A DNA stretch of 64,000 nucleotides from Azotobacter salinestris (lineage in GTDB: Bacteria > Pseudomonadota > Gammaproteobacteria > Pseudomonadales > Pseudomonadaceae): positions 757,001 to 821,000 of the forward strand of contig NZ_CP045302.1 in assembly GCF_009363155.1 (NCBI RefSeq), given 5' to 3'. How positions within the stretch are numbered: the stretch's first letter is position 1; every line of letters starts with the position of its first letter. The notes below the pieces were generated by a model that saw only the letters and a program-made list of their open reading frames with translations, had not been told where the DNA came from and searched no databases. Shown here in pieces: positions 41,300-54,236 of the stretch. Made by a program: the position numbers and the translations under genes.

Positions 41300-44566
<3,267 letters not shown>

Positions 44567-44655
44567 GTTGCCAGCCCCGCGGCGGCCCCCTGCTTCGGCA
44601 GGGGCCTCCGCCCCGTATTCCACTCCGGCCGCCATGCCGCCTTCGGGAGAGAGCC

Positions 44656-45561
44656 ATGAAACAGCGACAGGAAATGGTCGCCCACTACCGCGCGTGCTTC
44701 GGCGAGCTGTGCGCCCGACCGGAACACCGCCCCATCGAACCCTACACCCGCCCGCGGCGCCTGAACTTCGCCGAGCCGGAAAGCGAAACCGCCCGCCGCG
44801 TGCCGGCCCGCCTGATCCTGGCCCTGACCAGCGCCTACGCCCTGCTCGCCGACTGGCAGGAATCCCGCGACCCGTCGCTCGCCGGCCTCGGCAGCTGGCA
44901 ACGCTACCTCGCCCTGCCCCGCCGCACCCCGGCGGAGAAGCTGATGGCCGAGGTCTTCCGCATCCTGCGCGTGTTCCGCGCCGCGGCGATCCAGCAGAAC
45001 GGCGCCATCGAGATCCGCGACGACGGCCTGATCCGCGCCAGCTGCACCTACAACCGCTGCGCGCTGAGCCTTTTGATCAGCCAGACCGGCCTCGAACTGC
45101 TCGCCGCCTGCGTCGCCTGCTACCTCGAATCCTTCGACCAGCCCTACAGCGACGCCTACGAGGAACTGCTGCTCGGCCAGTACTACGCCGACATCGTCGC
45201 CGAGATCCGCGCCTTCGCCGACGACGACCGGGTGCTGTTCCAGTTCCGCCACACATGCTGGTTCAACCGCCATGTCCGCCTGGACTGCGACAACCCGCGC
45301 CTGCAGCTCGAAGAGGACCGCCACTACCGCATCGACCTGGGCAAGTACGGCGAGAACGCCGCCCGCCACCCGATCGACTTCTACATCACCCTCGACGACC
45401 GCCTGTACATCGTGCCGGTCGAGGCCCTGAAAGCCGGCTGCATCGCCGTCGCCGAGCTGCCCCGCTGGCTGGCGCGCACCGACGGCGGGACGAAGCTGCC
45501 GGACGCCTTTCGCCTGCGCTTCGCCCACGAAAAGAACGTCGTCGGCCTGCCGATGACCTGA
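44656..45561 (+). CDS. unrecognised 301-aa protein in the vnfDGK operon
   Basis: A soluble protein of 301 aa between vnfK and the vnfY-like gene, with ribosome site GGGAGAGAG before ATG 44656. I do not recognise a family. Its N-terminal third is helical (ARLILALTSAYALLADWQES), the centre has a Cys-rich helix (ASCTYNRCALSLLIS, LLAACVACYLESF), and the C-terminal part has strands around FQFRHTCWFNRHVRLDC. The five or more cysteines in the centre could bind metal. With no promoter or terminator between it and vnfK, it is most simply a V-nitrogenase accessory protein. No function is assigned. Confidence 0.75.
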   Translation: MKQRQEMVAHYRACFGELCARPEHRPIEPYTRPRRLNFAEPESETARRVPARLILALTSAYALLADWQESRDPSLAGLGSWQRYLALPRRTPAEKLMAEVFRILRVFRAAAIQQNGAIEIRDDGLIRASCTYNRCALSLLISQTGLELLAACVACYLESFDQPYSDAYEELLLGQYYADIVAEIRAFADDDRVLFQFRHTCWFNRHVRLDCDNPRLQLEEDRHYRIDLGKYGENAARHPIDFYITLDDRLYIVPVEALKAGCIAVAELPRWLARTDGGTKLPDAFRLRFAHEKNVVGLPMT

Positions 45562-48677: not shown

Positions 48678-48875
48678 ATGAGTGTCGAATCCGCCAAGGC
48701 CTACATCAACCGCATGCGCAGCGACGAAGCGTTCAAGAACCTGGTCAACGAAGGCGCGGAAGACGAACAGGCGAGCTGGGCGCTGCTCAAGGAGCACGGC
48801 TTCGCGTTCAGCATGAACGAGTTCCGCCAGGCCCAGGACGAGATCTACGCCGAGCACGGCATCACTCCCCTCTGA
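48678..48875 (+). CDS. Nif11-family small protein
   Basis: A 65-aa protein matching the Nif11 domain (SVESAKAYINRMRSDEAFKN, then EHGFAFSMNEFRQAQDEIYA). Such domains occur as stand-alone proteins in diazotrophs and as leader peptides of modified peptides; this one has no Gly-Gly cleavage site or core peptide, so the stand-alone kind fits. It has a strong AAGGAGG ribosome site 13 nt after the permease stop and a terminator just behind, so it is the last gene of the vnfDGK-transporter operon. Molecular role unknown. Confidence 0.85.
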   Translation: MSVESAKAYINRMRSDEAFKNLVNEGAEDEQASWALLKEHGFAFSMNEFRQAQDEIYAEHGITPL

Positions 48876-49045: not shown

Positions 49046-49282
49046 TCAAGCGCGGATGCCCCCCTCCAGCAGCACGCGCTCCAGATCCCCGGCCGCCTCG
49101 ACGATGGTCCGGAAGTTCTGCTGCGCCTCCTCGTCCCGGGGGTTGGCCCGCTCGATCCAGGCGCGCGCCTGGGTCAGGGCGTGGCGGGCCTCCTCCTCGG
49201 CCTTGCCCAGCAGGGTCGCGCTGCCCAGCTTGCGCGCGCCGACCAGGCGGCGGGTGGCGTTGACGATGCCGCGTGACTTCAT
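49046..49282 (-). CDS. small helical protein
   Basis: A 78-aa, highly charged, helical protein (KAEEEARHALTQARAWIERA, then EEAQQNFRTIVEAAGDLERV). GAGGA precedes its ATG at 49282. No family recognised. It is the only minus-strand gene between the vnf operon and the five-gene cassette and may simply be expressed on its own. Confidence 0.6.
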   Translation of the reverse strand: MKSRGIVNATRRLVGARKLGSATLLGKAEEEARHALTQARAWIERANPRDEEAQQNFRTIVEAAGDLERVLLEGGIRA

Positions 49283-49586
49283 GGTGTATTCCTCATGGCG
49301 GATGGATGCGCCGGGGACGATGCCAGCGCCGTGCCAGAAGCCCTTGGCCGCCGCCGGCCGGGCCGCGGCTGCCGGCGGCGCCTGCCCAAGGGTTCGCGCC
49401 GGTACGTCTGCCACGGCGAAATGTTCGGCGGCGAACACTTCCCATGCCACCCCTTCCCGACCCGAACGCCCGCAGCCCCGATACGGCGCGGCCTCGGCCA
49501 CGCCCGTGCCGGCTGGCCCGAATCTCGCTAAAGCCAGTCCGTGGGATGGAAAACCCGTACAGCGACTCTCCGCCGGTCAGCGCCAC

Positions 49587-49761
49587 TGGTGGGAAAGACC
49601 TGCGGTCGTTTCCCACCCGGACCAAGCCCGCCGTAGGGTGGGAAACTCGCGCAGCGATTTTCCACCGACCGGAGCACCACCGGTGGGAAAGGCCTGCGGC
49701 CGTTTCCCACCCTACGGATCGCCCAGCCGTAGGGTGAAAACGCGCAAAGCGATTTTCCACC
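49587..49761. repeat. alternating array of four REP-like palindromes
   Basis: Four GTAGGGTGG-family units at 49587-49617 (-), 49632-49665 (+), 49682-49717 (-) and 49728-49761 (+), with a degenerate fifth at about 49543-49574. Heads and tails are conserved (GTAGGGTG..., ...TTTTCCACC) while stem bases change in pairs. Orientation alternates strictly. The array lies directly before the five-gene cassette and fills most of the 49283-49810 gap. Confidence 0.8.
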
Positions 49762-49810
49762 GACCGGGGCACCCACGGACCAGACGACCCGCCGGAGCAA
49801 GGAGATCAGC

Positions 49811-50830
49811 GTGACGACACCGCAGCACATCACCGCCAATGCCGGCCAGTTGGACCTGCTCGGGCGCATGCCGATTCCGCTGCGTCGGGCCTTCAAGGCC
49901 GGTATCGACCGAACCCTGGCGGCGCAGCGCGCAGCCGGAGGCCCGGCCCTGAACTGCTGCTGCCTGGGCGGCGGCGAGTGGTACAGCCCGTTCGACACCC
50001 TGGCCAGCGAGCGCGATCCGGCGCGCCTGCCGGGCCTGCTGGTCTCGACCATCTACCAGGACATCCTCGCTCCGGGCCTGCTCGCCCGCTACGCCCCCGG
50101 CCCCGACGCCCGGCCCCTGCCCGCACTGCATCCGGCCTGCGCGGCGGCCGGCCTCGCCGACCCGCAGGAAGCCTTCCGGGTGTTCTCGGTGATTCCCTTC
50201 GTCTGGCTGATCGACCAGCGCCGGCTCAAGGGCCGCCGGCCGCCGCGTGTCTGGAGCGATCTGCTCGATCCGCAATGGGCCGGGGAGATCGTCTTCGGCG
50301 GCTGGCGGCCGAATCCGCAGGTGCCCTATCAGGACTACAACGCCTACCTGTTGCTGGCGCTGTATCTGGAGTTCGGCCAGAGCGGCCTCGCCGCCTTCGC
50401 CGGCAACGTGCGCCGCCTGCAGCACAACGTGCGCACCGCGACCCAGGCCGGCTCGAACAGTCCGGACGTCGGCGCCATCGCCGTGCTGCCCTGGCTGCAG
50501 GCCGAGCTCTGCCCGCGCCGCGAGCGCACCGCGGTGCTCTGGCCGGAGGACGGCGCGCTGGCCATGCCGATCGGCTACCTGCTCAAGCCCGGCTGCGAGG
50601 AACGCCTCGCCCCGCTCATCGACTACCTGCACGGCGCGGAGCTCGGCGCCGTGCTCGCCCACAACTGCTATCCACCGACCGGCACGGCGCCGGCCAATGC
50701 CTTTCCGCCGGGCGCGCGGCTGAAGTGGCCGGGCTGGGAGTTCTTCCGCAACCACGACTTCGCCGCCGAACAGCGCCGCGCCGCCGAGCTGTTCTTCGCC
50801 GCCCAAGGAGGCCTGCGCCCATGCAACTGA
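49811..50830 (+). CDS. cytosolic ABC-binding-protein-like protein (no signal peptide)
   Basis: A 339-aa protein with the fold signature of iron/molybdate-type extracellular binding proteins (IPFVWLIDQRRLKGRRPPRV, DLLDPQWAGEIVFGGWRPNP, PEDGALAMPIGYLL). It has no signal peptide: the N-terminus MTTPQHITANAGQLDLLGRM is hydrophilic. A triple cysteine (ALNCCCLGGGEW) near residue 52 is a possible metal site. It starts with GTG behind GGAG and is first of five tightly packed genes; the next starts inside its 3' end. It may bind a ligand in the cytosol rather than deliver it to a permease, and no permease gene is present. Confidence 0.8.
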   Translation: MTTPQHITANAGQLDLLGRMPIPLRRAFKAGIDRTLAAQRAAGGPALNCCCLGGGEWYSPFDTLASERDPARLPGLLVSTIYQDILAPGLLARYAPGPDARPLPALHPACAAAGLADPQEAFRVFSVIPFVWLIDQRRLKGRRPPRVWSDLLDPQWAGEIVFGGWRPNPQVPYQDYNAYLLLALYLEFGQSGLAAFAGNVRRLQHNVRTATQAGSNSPDVGAIAVLPWLQAELCPRRERTAVLWPEDGALAMPIGYLLKPGCEERLAPLIDYLHGAELGAVLAHNCYPPTGTAPANAFPPGARLKWPGWEFFRNHDFAAEQRRAAELFFAAQGGLRPCN

Positions 50831-51525
50831 TCACCGTGGCCGGCTCGCCGTCGGTCGGCAAGACCTCGGTCATCCTCCAGGTCGCCAGACTGCTCAGGGA
50901 GGACGGCCTCGCCGTCGGGGTGGCCAAGTTCGACGCCCTGTCCAGCGACGACGGGCGCCTCTACGCCAGGCACGGCATCCCGGTGGCGGTCGGCCTGGCC
51001 GGCGCCCTCTGCCCGGACCACTACTTCGTCTCCAACATCGCCGACTGCCAGGCCTGGGGCCGGCGCCAGGGCCTCGACGTGCTGATCGGCGAGAGCGCCG
51101 GGCTGTGCAACCGCTGCTCGCCGCACATCGACGGCGTGCTGGCGATCTGCGTGGTCGACGCCCTGGCCGGGGTGCACACGCCGAAGAAGATCGGCCCGAT
51201 GCTGCGCCTGGCCGACCTGGTGGCGATCACCAAGGGCGACATCGTCTCCCAGGTCGAGCGCGAGGTGTTCGCCTTCCACGTGCGCCTGGCCAACCCCGGT
51301 GCGCCGGCGCTGTTCTGCAACGGCCTCACCGGCCAGGGCGCCGCCGACCTGGCCCGGCACATCCGCGCCGCCGCGCCGACGCCGGACCTGAACGGCAGCC
51401 GCCTGCGCTTCTCGATGCCGGCGGCGGTCTGCCCCTACTGCGTCGGCGAGACCGCCATCGGCGAGACCCACCAGCGCGGCAACGTGAAGAAGATGCGCTT
51501 CGCCGACCGGGAGGAGCCCCGATGA
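50821..51525 (+). CDS. HypB/UreG/CobW-type GTPase
   Basis: A 234-aa P-loop GTPase of the metallochaperone group. P-loop GSPSVGKTS is at residues 8-16, the switch-like region IGESAGLCNRCSPHID carries a C-x2-C at about the position of metal-binding motifs in HypB/UreG, TKGD gives nucleotide specificity, and a second C-x2-C (CPYC) lies near the C-terminus. These enzymes insert Ni or Co into metalloenzymes; the substrate here is unknown. Its start overlaps the previous gene by 10 nt and its stop overlaps the ABC ATPase start (ATGA). Confidence 0.82.
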   Translation: MQLITVAGSPSVGKTSVILQVARLLREDGLAVGVAKFDALSSDDGRLYARHGIPVAVGLAGALCPDHYFVSNIADCQAWGRRQGLDVLIGESAGLCNRCSPHIDGVLAICVVDALAGVHTPKKIGPMLRLADLVAITKGDIVSQVEREVFAFHVRLANPGAPALFCNGLTGQGAADLARHIRAAAPTPDLNGSRLRFSMPAAVCPYCVGETAIGETHQRGNVKKMRFADREEPR

Positions 51526-52529
51526 GCCTCGCCGAGCTGCCCTTCGCCCTGCTGTTGGAGCGCCATCCGGCGCTGGCCGAATTCGTCGCCGCCCTCGCCC
51601 TGCCGCCCGCCACGCCCGGCGCCAGCCTTGCCCAGTGGCTAACCGGACTGCCCGACGAGGCGCTGTTCGACGCCGGCATGCAGCGCGCCCAGTTGCTCGA
51701 TCACCTGGAGCGGCTGGTCGCCGAGGTGCGCGCCCTGGCCGAGGCGCCGGACGCGCGGGTCGACAGCCTCACGCTGCTCGGCGGGCGCGACAAGCACGGC
51801 CGCGCCGAGAACCGCGAGCTGGTCTTTCGCGCCGGCGAGATCGTCTGCATCGTCGGCCCGACCGGCTCGGGCAAGAGCCGCCTGCTTGCCGACATCGAGT
51901 GCCTGGCCCAGGGCGATACGCCGACCGGCCGCCGGGTGCTGGTCAACGGTGCCGCACCGCCGGCCGAGCGGCGCTACGCGCCGGACCGCAAGCTGGTCGC
52001 GCAGTTGTCGCAGAACATGAATTTCGTCGTCGACCTCAGCGTGCGCGAGCTGATCGAGATGCACGCGCGCTGCCGGATGATCGCCGACCCGGAAGGCATG
52101 GCGCGCACGGTGATCGCCTGCGCCAATGCCCTGACCGGCGAGAAGTTCGCCGCCGACAGCGCCGTCACCCAGCTCTCCGGCGGCCAGACGCGCGCCCTGA
52201 TGATCGCCGACGCGGCGCTGCTGTCGGCCTCGCCGGTGGTGCTGATCGACGAGATCGAGAACGCCGGGGTCGACCGCAAGCGCGCCCTCGACCTCTTGGT
52301 CGGCGGCGCCAAGATCGTGCTGATCTCCACCCACGACCCGCTGCTCGCCCTGCGCGGCGCGCGTCGGCTGGTGATCCGCAACGGCGGCATCGCCGAGGTG
52401 CTCGACACCAGCCCGGCCGAGCGCCGCACCCTGGAATGCATCGAGCGCCTCGACGCCGCCCTGATGGGCATCCGCGAACGGCTGCGCGCCGGCCTGCGCA
52501 TCGAGGAGGAACTGCCATGGGCGGAATGA
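51522..52529 (+). CDS. soluble ABC-type ATPase with N-terminal helical domain
   Basis: A 335-aa protein. Residues 1-65 form a small helical domain resembling DUF1858/ScdA-N (LLERHPALAEFVAALALPP, then SLAQWLTGLPDEALFD). Then comes an ABC ATPase with Walker A GPTGSGKSR, signature LSGGQTRAL, Walker B VVLIDEIENAG and H-loop STHDP. Its Walker B differs from typical importers (DEI instead of DEP), as in some non-transport ABC proteins. No permease is encoded nearby. It probably drives a conformational or assembly step together with the GTPase. Confidence 0.8.
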   Translation: MSLAELPFALLLERHPALAEFVAALALPPATPGASLAQWLTGLPDEALFDAGMQRAQLLDHLERLVAEVRALAEAPDARVDSLTLLGGRDKHGRAENRELVFRAGEIVCIVGPTGSGKSRLLADIECLAQGDTPTGRRVLVNGAAPPAERRYAPDRKLVAQLSQNMNFVVDLSVRELIEMHARCRMIADPEGMARTVIACANALTGEKFAADSAVTQLSGGQTRALMIADAALLSASPVVLIDEIENAGVDRKRALDLLVGGAKIVLISTHDPLLALRGARRLVIRNGGIAEVLDTSPAERRTLECIERLDAALMGIRERLRAGLRIEEELPWAE

Positions 52530-53101
52530 CCCCGATTCCCGCCCCGGACTCCGCCCTGGGCCTGCTGCTCAACCGCCGCTCCTGCCACCGCGTGCGCGCG
52601 CCCGGGCCGAGCGACGCGGAGCTCGCGCTGATCCTGCGCGCCGCGCTGCGCGTGCCAGACTTTCAACACCTGCGCCCCTACCGCTTTCTCGCCGCCCGCG
52701 ACGCGGGCCTGGATCGCCTGGGCCGGGCCATGCAGCGCGCCGCCGTGGCCGCCGGGCGCAGCGAGGCGGAGATCGCCCGCACCCCGCGCATGCCGCACCG
52801 CGCGCCGCTGGTGATCACCGTGGTGGCCAGCCCGCGGCCGAGCGAGGTGGTGCCGCTGTTCGACCAGCAGCTGTGCGCCGCCTGCAGCGTGCTGACCCTG
52901 CAACTGGCTGCCCGCGCCCTGGGCTACGGCGGCCTGTGGCGCTCGGGCTGGCTGATGTACGACCGCGGCTTCCACCGCGAGCTGGGACTGGGCGAAGACG
53001 AACAGATCGTCGGCTTCCTCTATCTGGGAACGCCGCAACACGCCGAGGAGACAACCCATGAGGCTGTGCCAGACCCCTACGACGTCCTCCGCTGGATCTA
53101 G
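52517..53101 (+). CDS. nitroreductase-family flavoprotein
   Basis: A 194-aa FMN-dependent oxidoreductase. The FMN-binding start LLLNRRSCHRVRAPGPSD, the middle HRAPLVITVVAS and the helix ACSVLTLQLAARALGYGGLWRSG are typical of the nitroreductase/YdjA branch. It overlaps the ABC gene by 13 nt; ATG 52526 is an alternative start that would form an ATGA overlap. Within the cassette it may reduce a metal ion, a bound cofactor or a thiol-linked intermediate. Confidence 0.85.
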   Translation: MGGMTPIPAPDSALGLLLNRRSCHRVRAPGPSDAELALILRAALRVPDFQHLRPYRFLAARDAGLDRLGRAMQRAAVAAGRSEAEIARTPRMPHRAPLVITVVASPRPSEVVPLFDQQLCAACSVLTLQLAARALGYGGLWRSGWLMYDRGFHRELGLGEDEQIVGFLYLGTPQHAEETTHEAVPDPYDVLRWI

Positions 53102-54236
53102 GTCGATGCCGGCCGTGGACTACGGCATCGAATTCGAATACCTGCTGATCGATATCCGCGGCCCGCAGGCCGGACGCCTGCGCGACATCCACGCCCTGGA
53201 CGTCGCCCGGCTCGCCGAGCTGCTGGCCGACAAGCCCGGCCTCGGCGATCCGGCGCTGGCCGAGGGCGACCAGGGCATCCGCAGCGGCTATTGGTACCTG
53301 GAAGGCGACGAGCGCTTCGACCCGGAGGGGCGCTTCTGCGGCTTCGTCGCCAAGGGCGTGGAGATCCGCACCCCGCCCTTGCCCGGCGTCGCGCCCGCCA
53401 TCGACAGCCTGCTCGACATCGAGCGCCAGCTCGCCGCGCGCCTCGAGCGCGGCGGCCTGGGCCTGGCCATCGCCGGCTTCGACCCGCTGCGCACCCAGTA
53501 CGGCTACAACCCGCCGCTCAACGCCTTCGAGCAGCGCCTGCGCGCCGGGGACCGCGAGTACCAGGGCATGGAGCTGTCGATGCTGACCTACGGCCCGGAC
53601 ATCAACCTGTCGCTGCCCGCCTGGAACACCCGGCGCAACCTCGACGCCGCGCGCAAGCTCAACCACTACGCGCCCTACATCGTGCCCTTCAGCTTCAGCT
53701 CGCCGTACTGCGCCGGGCGGCCCTGGCACGGCTGGTCGCGGCGCACCTGGCTGCGCTGCGACCGGCGCCCGGCGGTCAAGCTGTTCCTGGGGCTCGAGGA
53801 GTACGCCGAGCAGGCCGAGCGCTCGCCGCTGCTGCGTCCGGCGCGGCTGGCGCGGGAAGCCGGGCGCATCGAGTTCAAGGCCTTCGATGCGATGCCCTCG
53901 GTGGAGCTGCTCGCCGCCTGCTGCCACCTGCTGACCGGCATCTGCCTGGCGAGCAACCTGCGCGGGCGCAGCGAAACCCCGGACGTGGCGCTGTACCGTC
54001 GCGCCGCGCTGCATGCCTTCGACGACGCAAAGATCCGCAACGGCGCCCGCGCCGCCCTGTACGCCGCCGCCGAGGCCCTCGACCGCGCTGGCAACGCCAC
54101 CGCCGTCGCCGGCCTCGCGCCCCTGGCCCGGCTGCTGTCGAGCCGCAGCACCCCGGCTCACGGTCTGCGCGCCAGCGGCCGGCTGTTCCATCCGGGCGGG
54201 CTGGTCGACAGCCTGGCGCCGGCGGCGGCCTGCTGA
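53058..54236 (+). CDS. glutamate-cysteine ligase-like ATP-dependent carboxylate-amine ligase
   Basis: A 392-aa enzyme of the GCS2-like family, which joins an amino acid or amine to a carboxylate using ATP. The N-terminal GIEFEYLLID carries the E-x-E metal ligands, followed by FVAKGVEIRTPPLPGV and the substrate region MELSMLTYGPDINLSLPAWN. ATG 53058 has GAGGAG upstream and overlaps the nitroreductase gene by 44 nt; ATG 53106 is an alternative with a weaker site. It could make a thiol or gamma-glutamyl-type ligand for the other proteins of the cassette. Confidence 0.72.
   Translation: MRLCQTPTTSSAGSRSMPAVDYGIEFEYLLIDIRGPQAGRLRDIHALDVARLAELLADKPGLGDPALAEGDQGIRSGYWYLEGDERFDPEGRFCGFVAKGVEIRTPPLPGVAPAIDSLLDIERQLAARLERGGLGLAIAGFDPLRTQYGYNPPLNAFEQRLRAGDREYQGMELSMLTYGPDINLSLPAWNTRRNLDAARKLNHYAPYIVPFSFSSPYCAGRPWHGWSRRTWLRCDRRPAVKLFLGLEEYAEQAERSPLLRPARLAREAGRIEFKAFDAMPSVELLAACCHLLTGICLASNLRGRSETPDVALYRRAALHAFDDAKIRNGARAALYAAAEALDRAGNATAVAGLAPLARLLSSRSTPAHGLRASGRLFHPGGLVDSLAPAAAC

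Follow-up and report, generated by a model that had tools for sequence, protein, structure and literature searches.

A five-gene operon behind the vanadium nitrogenase genes of Azotobacter salinestris as a candidate vanadium donor for the enzyme's cofactor

What is the task of the five genes that lie about 0.9 kb behind the vanadium nitrogenase (V-nitrogenase; vnf) genes of Azotobacter salinestris? They are found in a stretch of 64,000 nucleotides, here called the window, that corresponds to positions 757,001 to 821,000 of contig NZ_CP045302.1 (assembly GCF_009363155.1; genome of 5.29 Mb in three contigs). A sequence-only reading of the window had described them as an overlapping cassette for the handling of a metal or cofactor, possibly vanadium. 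The analyses reported here partly bear this out, as the gene set stands, but two details, a DUF1858-like domain and a CCC motif, do not. The operon probably hands vanadium to the metal cofactor of the enzyme, and related gene sets, found in many other nitrogen fixers, point to a metal-delivery machine of wider use.

All five genes were confirmed as real and occupy positions 49811 to 54236 on the forward strand. They are referred to as A (binding protein), B (GTPase), C (ABC ATPase), D (nitroreductase) and E (GCS2 ligase), as follows.

49811-50830, + strand: gene A, solute-binding protein, predicted to be cytosolic, with a FutA/FbpA-like fold (SBP_bac_6, 1e-51; orthologue of Avin_02430)
50821-51525, + strand: gene B, UreG/HypB-like GTPase with a CPDH motif, two C-x2-C motifs and Cys110 (cobW, 3e-7; orthologue of Avin_02420)
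51522-52529, + strand: gene C, ABC ATPase without a permease, extended at the N terminus by about 80 residues (ABC_tran, 7e-15; orthologue of Avin_02410)
52517-53101, + strand: gene D, YdjA-like flavin nitroreductase (Nitroreductase, 3e-17; orthologue of Avin_02400)
52526, + strand: alternative ATG start of gene D
53106-54236, + strand: gene E, GCS2-type carboxylate-amine ligase (GCS2, 2e-10; orthologue of Avin_02390)

Overlap of all five genes had been claimed, and this is correct for A to D (10 bases for A/B, 4 for B/C and 13 for C/D), but E starts 4 bases past the end of D. The distance of about 0.9 kb, read from the ORF ends, separates A from the last small ORF of the vnf/vod cluster. A Pfam scan detected no permease among the five genes, and the first 45 residues of A include no signal-like segment (best 12-residue hydrophobicity mean 0.62), and the view that this is not an ordinary importer stands.

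The five genes have orthologues, in the same order, in the Azotobacter vinelandii operon Avin_02430-02390, which depends on VnfA1 by ChIP-seq and qRT-PCR and has a VnfA1 ChIP peak and sigma-54 promoters (PMC9542535). There, the products are labelled substrate-binding protein (Avin_02430), 'nickel binding GTPase' (02420), ABC ATPase (02410), nitroreductase (02400) and glutamate-cysteine ligase (02390), and the authors, citing Addo and Dos Santos 2020, describe the operon minus its last gene (02390) as conserved among Proteobacteria that have V-nitrogenase. The excerpts of PMC9542535 state no function for the operon, and this paper was the sole match for the five locus tags among the open-licence PubMed Central (PMC) papers. 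Hence, the operon that had been called undescribed is already in print, and the word fits only its function. In the A. vinelandii-like genome G403 (5,366,370 bases, one contig), the proteins of the corresponding copy (L151; loci and genomes carry L and G numbers) are 86-95 % identical to those of the window (86 % for A, 95 % for B).

Two promoter features that the sequence-only reading missed are of the same kind as those of the Avin_02430-02390 operon.

49392-49405, + strand: VnfA1-type binding site, GTTC-N6-GTAC (match to the motif published in PMC9542535)
49514-49529, + strand: sigma-54-like -24/-12 promoter element (the only strict-pattern match in the window)

The VnfA1 motif has 10 matches in the window against 0.56 expected (palindromes counted on both strands). 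The sigma-54 pattern also matches in 42 of 100 shuffles, so that the element is weak alone. The two sites are 122 bases apart in the window, in L151 and in Azotobacter chroococcum (L001), and the sigma-54-like element is identical in all three, with one base changed in the Azomonas loci L003 and L004; in L004 the VnfA1 motif was unmatched within the 700 bases inspected. The window otherwise differs little from the A. vinelandii operon, the promoter lying 152 bases further upstream of A than in G403. A 94-base tandem repeat (49579-49773, 2.1 copies) sits there, between the sigma-54-like element and A; by eye, about one copy is present in A. chroococcum and none in G403. For A. vinelandii, published data place the operon in the V-nitrogenase regulon, and the window keeps the promoter.

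Relatives of B were sought more widely. The scan found at least 553 stretches encoding one (E 1e-3), and the best 80 loci were fetched, 50 of which (49 genomes) were taken into whole-genome searches. AnfG or VnfG was present in 34 of the 49 genomes. A tree of these delta subunits, in which a few branches are long, divides into two sets of 22 and 29 rows, the larger including the VnfG of the window. Nine fetched rows and the window were checked against NCBIfam: the five rows from the first set were all over the AnfG cut-off, and in the second, VnfG set the window and G026 were over the VnfG cut-off while G035, G039 and G045 scored best with VnfG but below it. A VnfG-set protein was found in all 23 tested genomes with a V-type B (G001-G021, G023 and G027; proteobacterial and myxobacterial); this test covered the V loci other than L007, L013, L015, L016 and L024.

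In the B tree, from which the near-duplicates L001, L007, L018, L025 and L151 were left out, the V-type clade comprises 27 rows, namely 26 V loci and Ruminiclostridium hungatei, with support of 100/97. A quick tree places 31 V rows together without R. hungatei, with support of only 0.50. The placement of the R. hungatei locus (L057; genome G039, which has a VnfG-set protein) is unsure, as it falls inside the V clade on a long branch in one tree and outside it in the other. The other proteobacterial genome tested, the Tolumonas metagenome-assembled genome (MAG) G034, has a B outside the V clade, no nearby D and no AnfG or VnfG.

A less biased check ran in the reverse direction, starting from samples of genomes. 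Among 337 Alphaproteobacteria drawn round Rhodopila, AnfG/VnfG occurs in two genomes, both times from the VnfG set, and B in the same two; one is the centre of the draw, and without it the overlap is 1/1 (Fisher 0.003). Among 37 relatives of the window genome, B and AnfG/VnfG are found in the same five, the window counted (Fisher 2.3e-6), and the delta subunits of the other four are 84-96 % identical to the window VnfG. A delta subunit is present in 8 of 16 Rhodopseudomonas genomes, and the seven with AnfG only all lack B while the one with both has it. From these same-genome counts, B tracks V-nitrogenase and not Fe-only nitrogenase in the Proteobacteria sampled. The proposed link to vanadium is thus supported by the VnfA1-dependent orthologous operon (PMC9542535), by the identical genome sets of B and VnfG in two samples and by the lack of B in AnfG-only Rhodopseudomonas. 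That the B family as a whole is strictly V-specific was rejected, with a VnfG-set protein in only 27 of the 49 B genomes (the 23 V-type ones and G026, G035, G039 and G045).

Evidence for metal handling comes from B. The best six PDB matches of its model (pLDDT 84.7, with residues 200-219 round the last C-x2-C mostly unsure) are UreG and HypB, and the P-loop, ESxG and KxD motifs can be aligned with theirs. Cys64-Pro-Asp-His67 of B aligns, with one extra residue, to the Cys-Pro-His motif of UreG, which binds nickel. Across 35 aligned B proteins (window counted), C64, H67, C96, C99, C110, C204 and C207 are invariant, which includes both C-x2-C motifs noted from the sequence (C96/C99 and C204/C207). 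The cobW Pfam model scores 30.6 bits against a cut-off of 20.7, whereas the HypB and UreG equivalog models score only 25.8 and 24.1 against cut-offs of 121.2 and 204.2. B thus shares fold, G motifs and Cys-Pro-(Asp)-His with UreG and HypB, which work with UreE and HypA, and differs from them in falling far below their cut-offs, in the extra invariant cysteines (two C-x2-C plus C110) and in its usual partners, a binding protein and an ABC ATPase, the latter fused to it in L166. We regard B as a predicted HypB/UreG-like metal GTPase of the cobW/HypB/UreG superfamily, with GTP hydrolysis and metal binding as its putative activities. Metal or cofactor handling by the cassette is a fair inference from the predicted fold and the metal motif.

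The model of A (pLDDT 94.0) best matches the ferric-binding proteins FutA and FbpA and also resembles the metal-citrate protein MctA. The sequence-only reading of A as binding-protein-like without a signal peptide was right; A differs from FutA and FbpA in lacking the signal peptide, the Tyr-Tyr pair and a permease in its operon. W165, R236, R237, N285 and Y287 are invariant in V-type A proteins and mostly different in other lineages, which agrees with a changed cargo or ligand. The CCC motif was rejected as a metal site, as it is not conserved: C49 and C50 are each found in 21 of 30 V-type A proteins and C51 in 5 of 30.

C retains Walker A, LSGGQ, Walker B and the H-loop, with strong conservation in the three groups compared. 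The DUF1858 domain (PF08984) that had been read onto C was not detected on C or A of the window (E up to 1). Among the scanned homologues, it was found on two A proteins (47.8 and 59.9 bits, cut-off 32.2), and the C of L053 reached 17.2 bits, below the cut-off.

The domain calls for D and E were also sound. D has YdjA among its nearest solved relatives and scores 162.3 bits with the YdjA model NF008088 (cut-off 183). E passes the GCS2 model PF04107 (40.8 bits, cut-off 21), falls far under the cut-offs of the EgtA and YbdK-type models, and has no solved-structure relatives at E 0.01. D is near 27 of 104 fetched loci (window, L151 and L152 counted), all of them proteobacterial or myxobacterial V loci. 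It is found in 24 of 28 V loci, and the four without it (L006, L015, L016 and L024) end 490-1541 bases past B; L015 also shows no C within its 1541 bases. The refuting condition named earlier, a cassette found mostly in genomes without V-nitrogenase, gives a divided answer: it applies to the A-B-C core, which is common in diazotrophs without vnf, but not to the D-bearing cassette, seen only at V loci.

E is present in 11 of the 28 V loci, from Gammaproteobacteria and Betaproteobacteria, one 'Proteobacteria' MAG and one Myxococcales MAG. In nine alphaproteobacterial loci, A is adjoined, on either strand, by an ATP-grasp protein with weak similarity to D-Ala-D-Ala ligase, which is also near B in L152, so that the Alphaproteobacteria seen mostly have the ATP-grasp ligase in place of E. 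No locus among those seen has both ligases (L006, L007, L011, L015 and L016 have cut ends in this count). As either of two unrelated ligases adjoins the same genes, amide-bond formation is suggested to be part of the job of the cassette. This ligase swap is not mentioned in the excerpts of PMC9542535.

A and C are the usual partners of B: among all 104 loci, A is near B in 87 and C in 103. A DUF364-type gene ('putative heavy-metal chelation') is found in 11 of the 17 loci with no A near B, which include Sporomusa, Paenibacillus and methanogen relatives. Peripla_BP_2-type (BtuF-type) proteins are near 34 of the 104, FecCD permeases near 25, VodA near 13 and TonB receptors near 11. In the Desulfuromonadales loci L040, L052 and L062, A-B-C stands beside nifB and nifD/K-type genes, and whole-genome searches of G032 (L040) and G042 (L062) found no AnfG or VnfG. 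L067, L166 and L167 encode a B of about 505 residues, some 6 kb ahead of nifH; fusion to an ABC ATPase is shown for L166 (8984-10507), and the other two are of the same length. Further genes noted at these loci are mod genes on the other side (L166 and L167) and an HTH-type gene adjoining A (L166/L167/L067 group).

Over the nifH cut-off were 43 of the 49 B genomes. The remaining six have strong but truncated matches (G002 and G042), a match of only 1e-31 (G010, which has VnfG), or 5e-11 at best (G030, G037 and G048, members of the c22 clade described below). Of 225 Clostridiales, 45 have B, 67 have nifH over the cut-off and 30 have both (Fisher 8e-9). All 45 clostridial B loci were placed in the quick tree, and nifH was then present in 28 of 28 genomes with a nitrogenase-type B compared with 39 of 197 others (Fisher 1.4e-17; a strong value that is uncorrected for kinship, with types split after seeing the data, and not to be taken as a probability). 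Another 14 of the 45 genomes have a B from a sister clade (21 rows, support 0.95; 13 rows, 100/98 in the other tree), and 13 of these lack nifH, the exception being G633. Three clostridial genomes, one with nifH, have a divergent B (about 1e-77). Strict linkage of B to diazotrophy was rejected, since 15 of the 45 lack nifH (13 from the single c22/hybrid cluster protein clade and two with divergent copies).

In the sister clade, the gene behind A-B-C often encodes a small protein, c22, that weakly resembles the HypA zinc ribbon (below the cut-off), and hybrid cluster protein genes are near A-B-C in three loci (L157, L158 and L190). The A-B-C genes are not recognised in the parts of the HcpR papers PMC12915319 and PMC1274295 that were available. 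A Crp-type regulator and an F420_ligase-family gene are near the sister-lineage loci L160-L162. In L163 (7523-8437), L164 and L165, a divergent C-B pair stands beside a short SBP_bac_6-like protein (5.5e-6 in L163) and near a Crp-like regulator and ABC importer genes (labels by reading); these sets are possibly a third lineage. In L168 (11770-18501), A-B-C is followed by four distant nitrogenase-like genes in a row, with NifX-like and cysteine-synthase-like genes (labels by reading) ahead of them. G403 contains a second A-B-C set behind a Peripla_BP_2-type gene at 45-49 kb (L150, 7091-10816), which is missing from the window genome, where the next B match is only 7e-9. Its position makes it a plausible counterpart of Avin_00450, the VnfA1-dependent operon labelled 'iron ABC transporter' in PMC9542535.

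We tentatively favour, at somewhat less than an even chance, a reading of A-B-C as an energy-driven cytosolic metal donor for nitrogenase cofactor assembly, with the window copy as its vanadium branch. The steps are given in order of weakening support. The missing signal peptide of A and the missing permease gene suggest that the system would act in the cytosol, after vanadate import. A, a bilobal protein of the ferric-binding type, would hold vanadium as an oxyanion or chelate. C, using ATP, and B, using GTP and bearing the UreG/HypB metal motif, would open A and time the release, and the metal may pass via the cysteines of B to a scaffold, e.g. VnfEN or VnfX. The flavoenzyme D might reduce V(V), or a ligand of vanadium, to an insertable state, and E might supply the metal with a small amide ligand, a task that would fall to the ATP-grasp ligase in most of the Alphaproteobacteria seen. 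In anaerobes, related A-B-C sets could perform the same service for molybdenum.

The proposed role resembles that of NifQ, the molybdenum donor for FeMo-co (PMC11605450), in bringing a heterometal to a scaffold, but the proteins are unrelated. NifQ was found in 22 of 23 V-type genomes and had no match in 21 of 23 nitrogenase-type genomes outside the proteobacterial V set, G032 and G034 being the exceptions. The vodABC genes, a predicted vanadate importer, and VnfZ share the regulon of the operon, neighbour it in the window and likewise include a bilobal binding protein, but this is from a different family to A, and vodABC is a complete importer (PMC9542535).

Several observations weigh against a metal donor of this kind. 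A Tyr-Tyr pair binds iron in ferric-binding proteins, and the YY stretch of SfuA aligns with Val-Leu in A, for which ferric binding by such a pair was rejected. D is absent from the B loci of four Firmicutes with a VnfG-set protein (L031, L045, L057 and L067). Among plasmid records, a VnfG-like protein is encoded on three Nostoc plasmids and the sole B-bearing record is from Fusobacterium, so V-nitrogenase on Nostoc plasmids may do without the cassette, which was not found in 30 kb of one inspected cyanobacterial vnf plasmid region. (The Fusobacterium record is without annotation.) The sister clade of B sits in mostly nif-less genomes, and 37 of the 67 nifH-bearing Clostridiales have no B at E 1e-60, so B is accessory. 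Plain replacement of NifQ was rejected as a general rule, as the V-type genomes with one exception keep NifQ, and G032 and G034, with B but no AnfG or VnfG, have it too. Finally, biochemistry or a deletion phenotype was not found in the open-licence PMC literature.

A broader proposal sees in A-B-C a class of nucleotide-driven metallocluster machine that has gone unrecognised, built of a cytosolic protein of the ferric-binding type, a UreG/HypB-type GTPase whose transfer site is rich in cysteines, and an ABC ATPase without a permease. One lineage would provide nitrogenase cofactors with their heterometal (molybdenum in anaerobes; vanadium in Proteobacteria, there with a reductase and an amide ligase of either kind), and a sister lineage, together with a HypA-like zinc-ribbon protein, would act for a different metallocluster enzyme, e.g. 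the hybrid cluster protein; this is possible, but we consider it doubtful. Two alternatives appear unlikely, and equally so. In one, the job of the cassette is to make or strip a small chelator of vanadium: the ligase would form an amide, D would reduce that ligand or the metal, and A-B-C would see to loading or unloading of the chelate once it has come in via TonB and FecCD systems. The two unrelated amide-forming ligases that adjoin the same genes and never co-occur in the loci seen fit this, as do the TonB, FecCD and Peripla_BP_2-type neighbours of many copies and the likeness of A to MctA. However, neither ligase was found in the fetched stretches of L023 and L025, which do have D; L024, cut on the right, shows no ATP-grasp gene over the 10 kb ahead of B; and across the 104 loci neither ligase is near an A-B-C set outside V loci. 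In the other, A-B-C acts on a cofactor or precursor common to all nitrogenases (iron, sulfur, homocitrate or NifB-co), or in insertion or repair, and vanadium is incidental. This fits the absence of AnfG and VnfG from 12 of the 23 genomes outside the proteobacterial V set that were tested and have a nitrogenase-type B, the place of the core in L062 beside NifB-, NifX- and NifV-type genes (NifB and NifV labels by reading), and the three sister-clade loci near hybrid cluster protein genes, the clusters of that protein containing only iron with sulfur and oxygen. Yet in the sampled Proteobacteria the core follows VnfG and not AnfG, though NifB-co is common to all nitrogenases, and D and the ligases were seen at V loci only.

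That A is a cytosolic vanadium sensor, with B and C relaying to transcription or enzyme activity, has a precedent in VnfZ, a VodA paralogue without a signal peptide that interacts with VnfA3 in A. vinelandii and for which sensing has been proposed (PMC9542535). We think this very unlikely, as sensing would hardly call for two nucleotide-driven proteins plus a flavoenzyme and a ligase, and A belongs to SBP_bac_6 while VodA and VnfZ are described as phosphonate-type binding proteins (PMC9542535). Least probable of all is an ordinary ABC importer with C serving a permease encoded elsewhere. A and C do come from importer-type families, but A lacks a signal peptide, no permease is fixed beside A-B-C across the 104 loci (even FecCD and VodA are near only the minorities given above), and the neighbouring vodABC has an ATPase and permease of its own (PMC9542535).

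Three further genes of the window deserve mention. The gene at 44545-45561, 3' of vnfK, belongs to no recognised family and has relatives in five sets of loci (window counted); its relative in L002 had no Pfam match. The small ORF that closes the vod genes (48678-48875) is presumably Nif11-like. A small divergent ORF at 49046-49282 (- strand) takes, by position, the place of Avin_02450, the promoter of which is also called VnfA1-dependent in PMC9542535. VnfD of the window differs at 2 of 474 aligned positions from the A. vinelandii protein of PDB entry 5n6y.

We know of no vanadium donor for the nitrogenase cofactor, and the portions of the literature on VnfEN and cofactor sorting that were consulted do not name one. 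The VnfA1 control of the operon and its conservation with V-nitrogenase were already known (PMC9542535), and what is added here, and was not found in searches of the open-licence PMC literature, is the wider A-B-C family with its two main lineages and the alternative ligases. As the operon is in the vnf regulon, accompanies V-nitrogenase but not the Fe-only enzyme in the sampled Proteobacteria and encodes a protein like a metal GTPase, it is a good candidate for the vanadium donor. The wider A-B-C family may matter to diazotrophs without NifQ, and the operon could be a useful component when V- or Mo-nitrogenase is transferred to new hosts.

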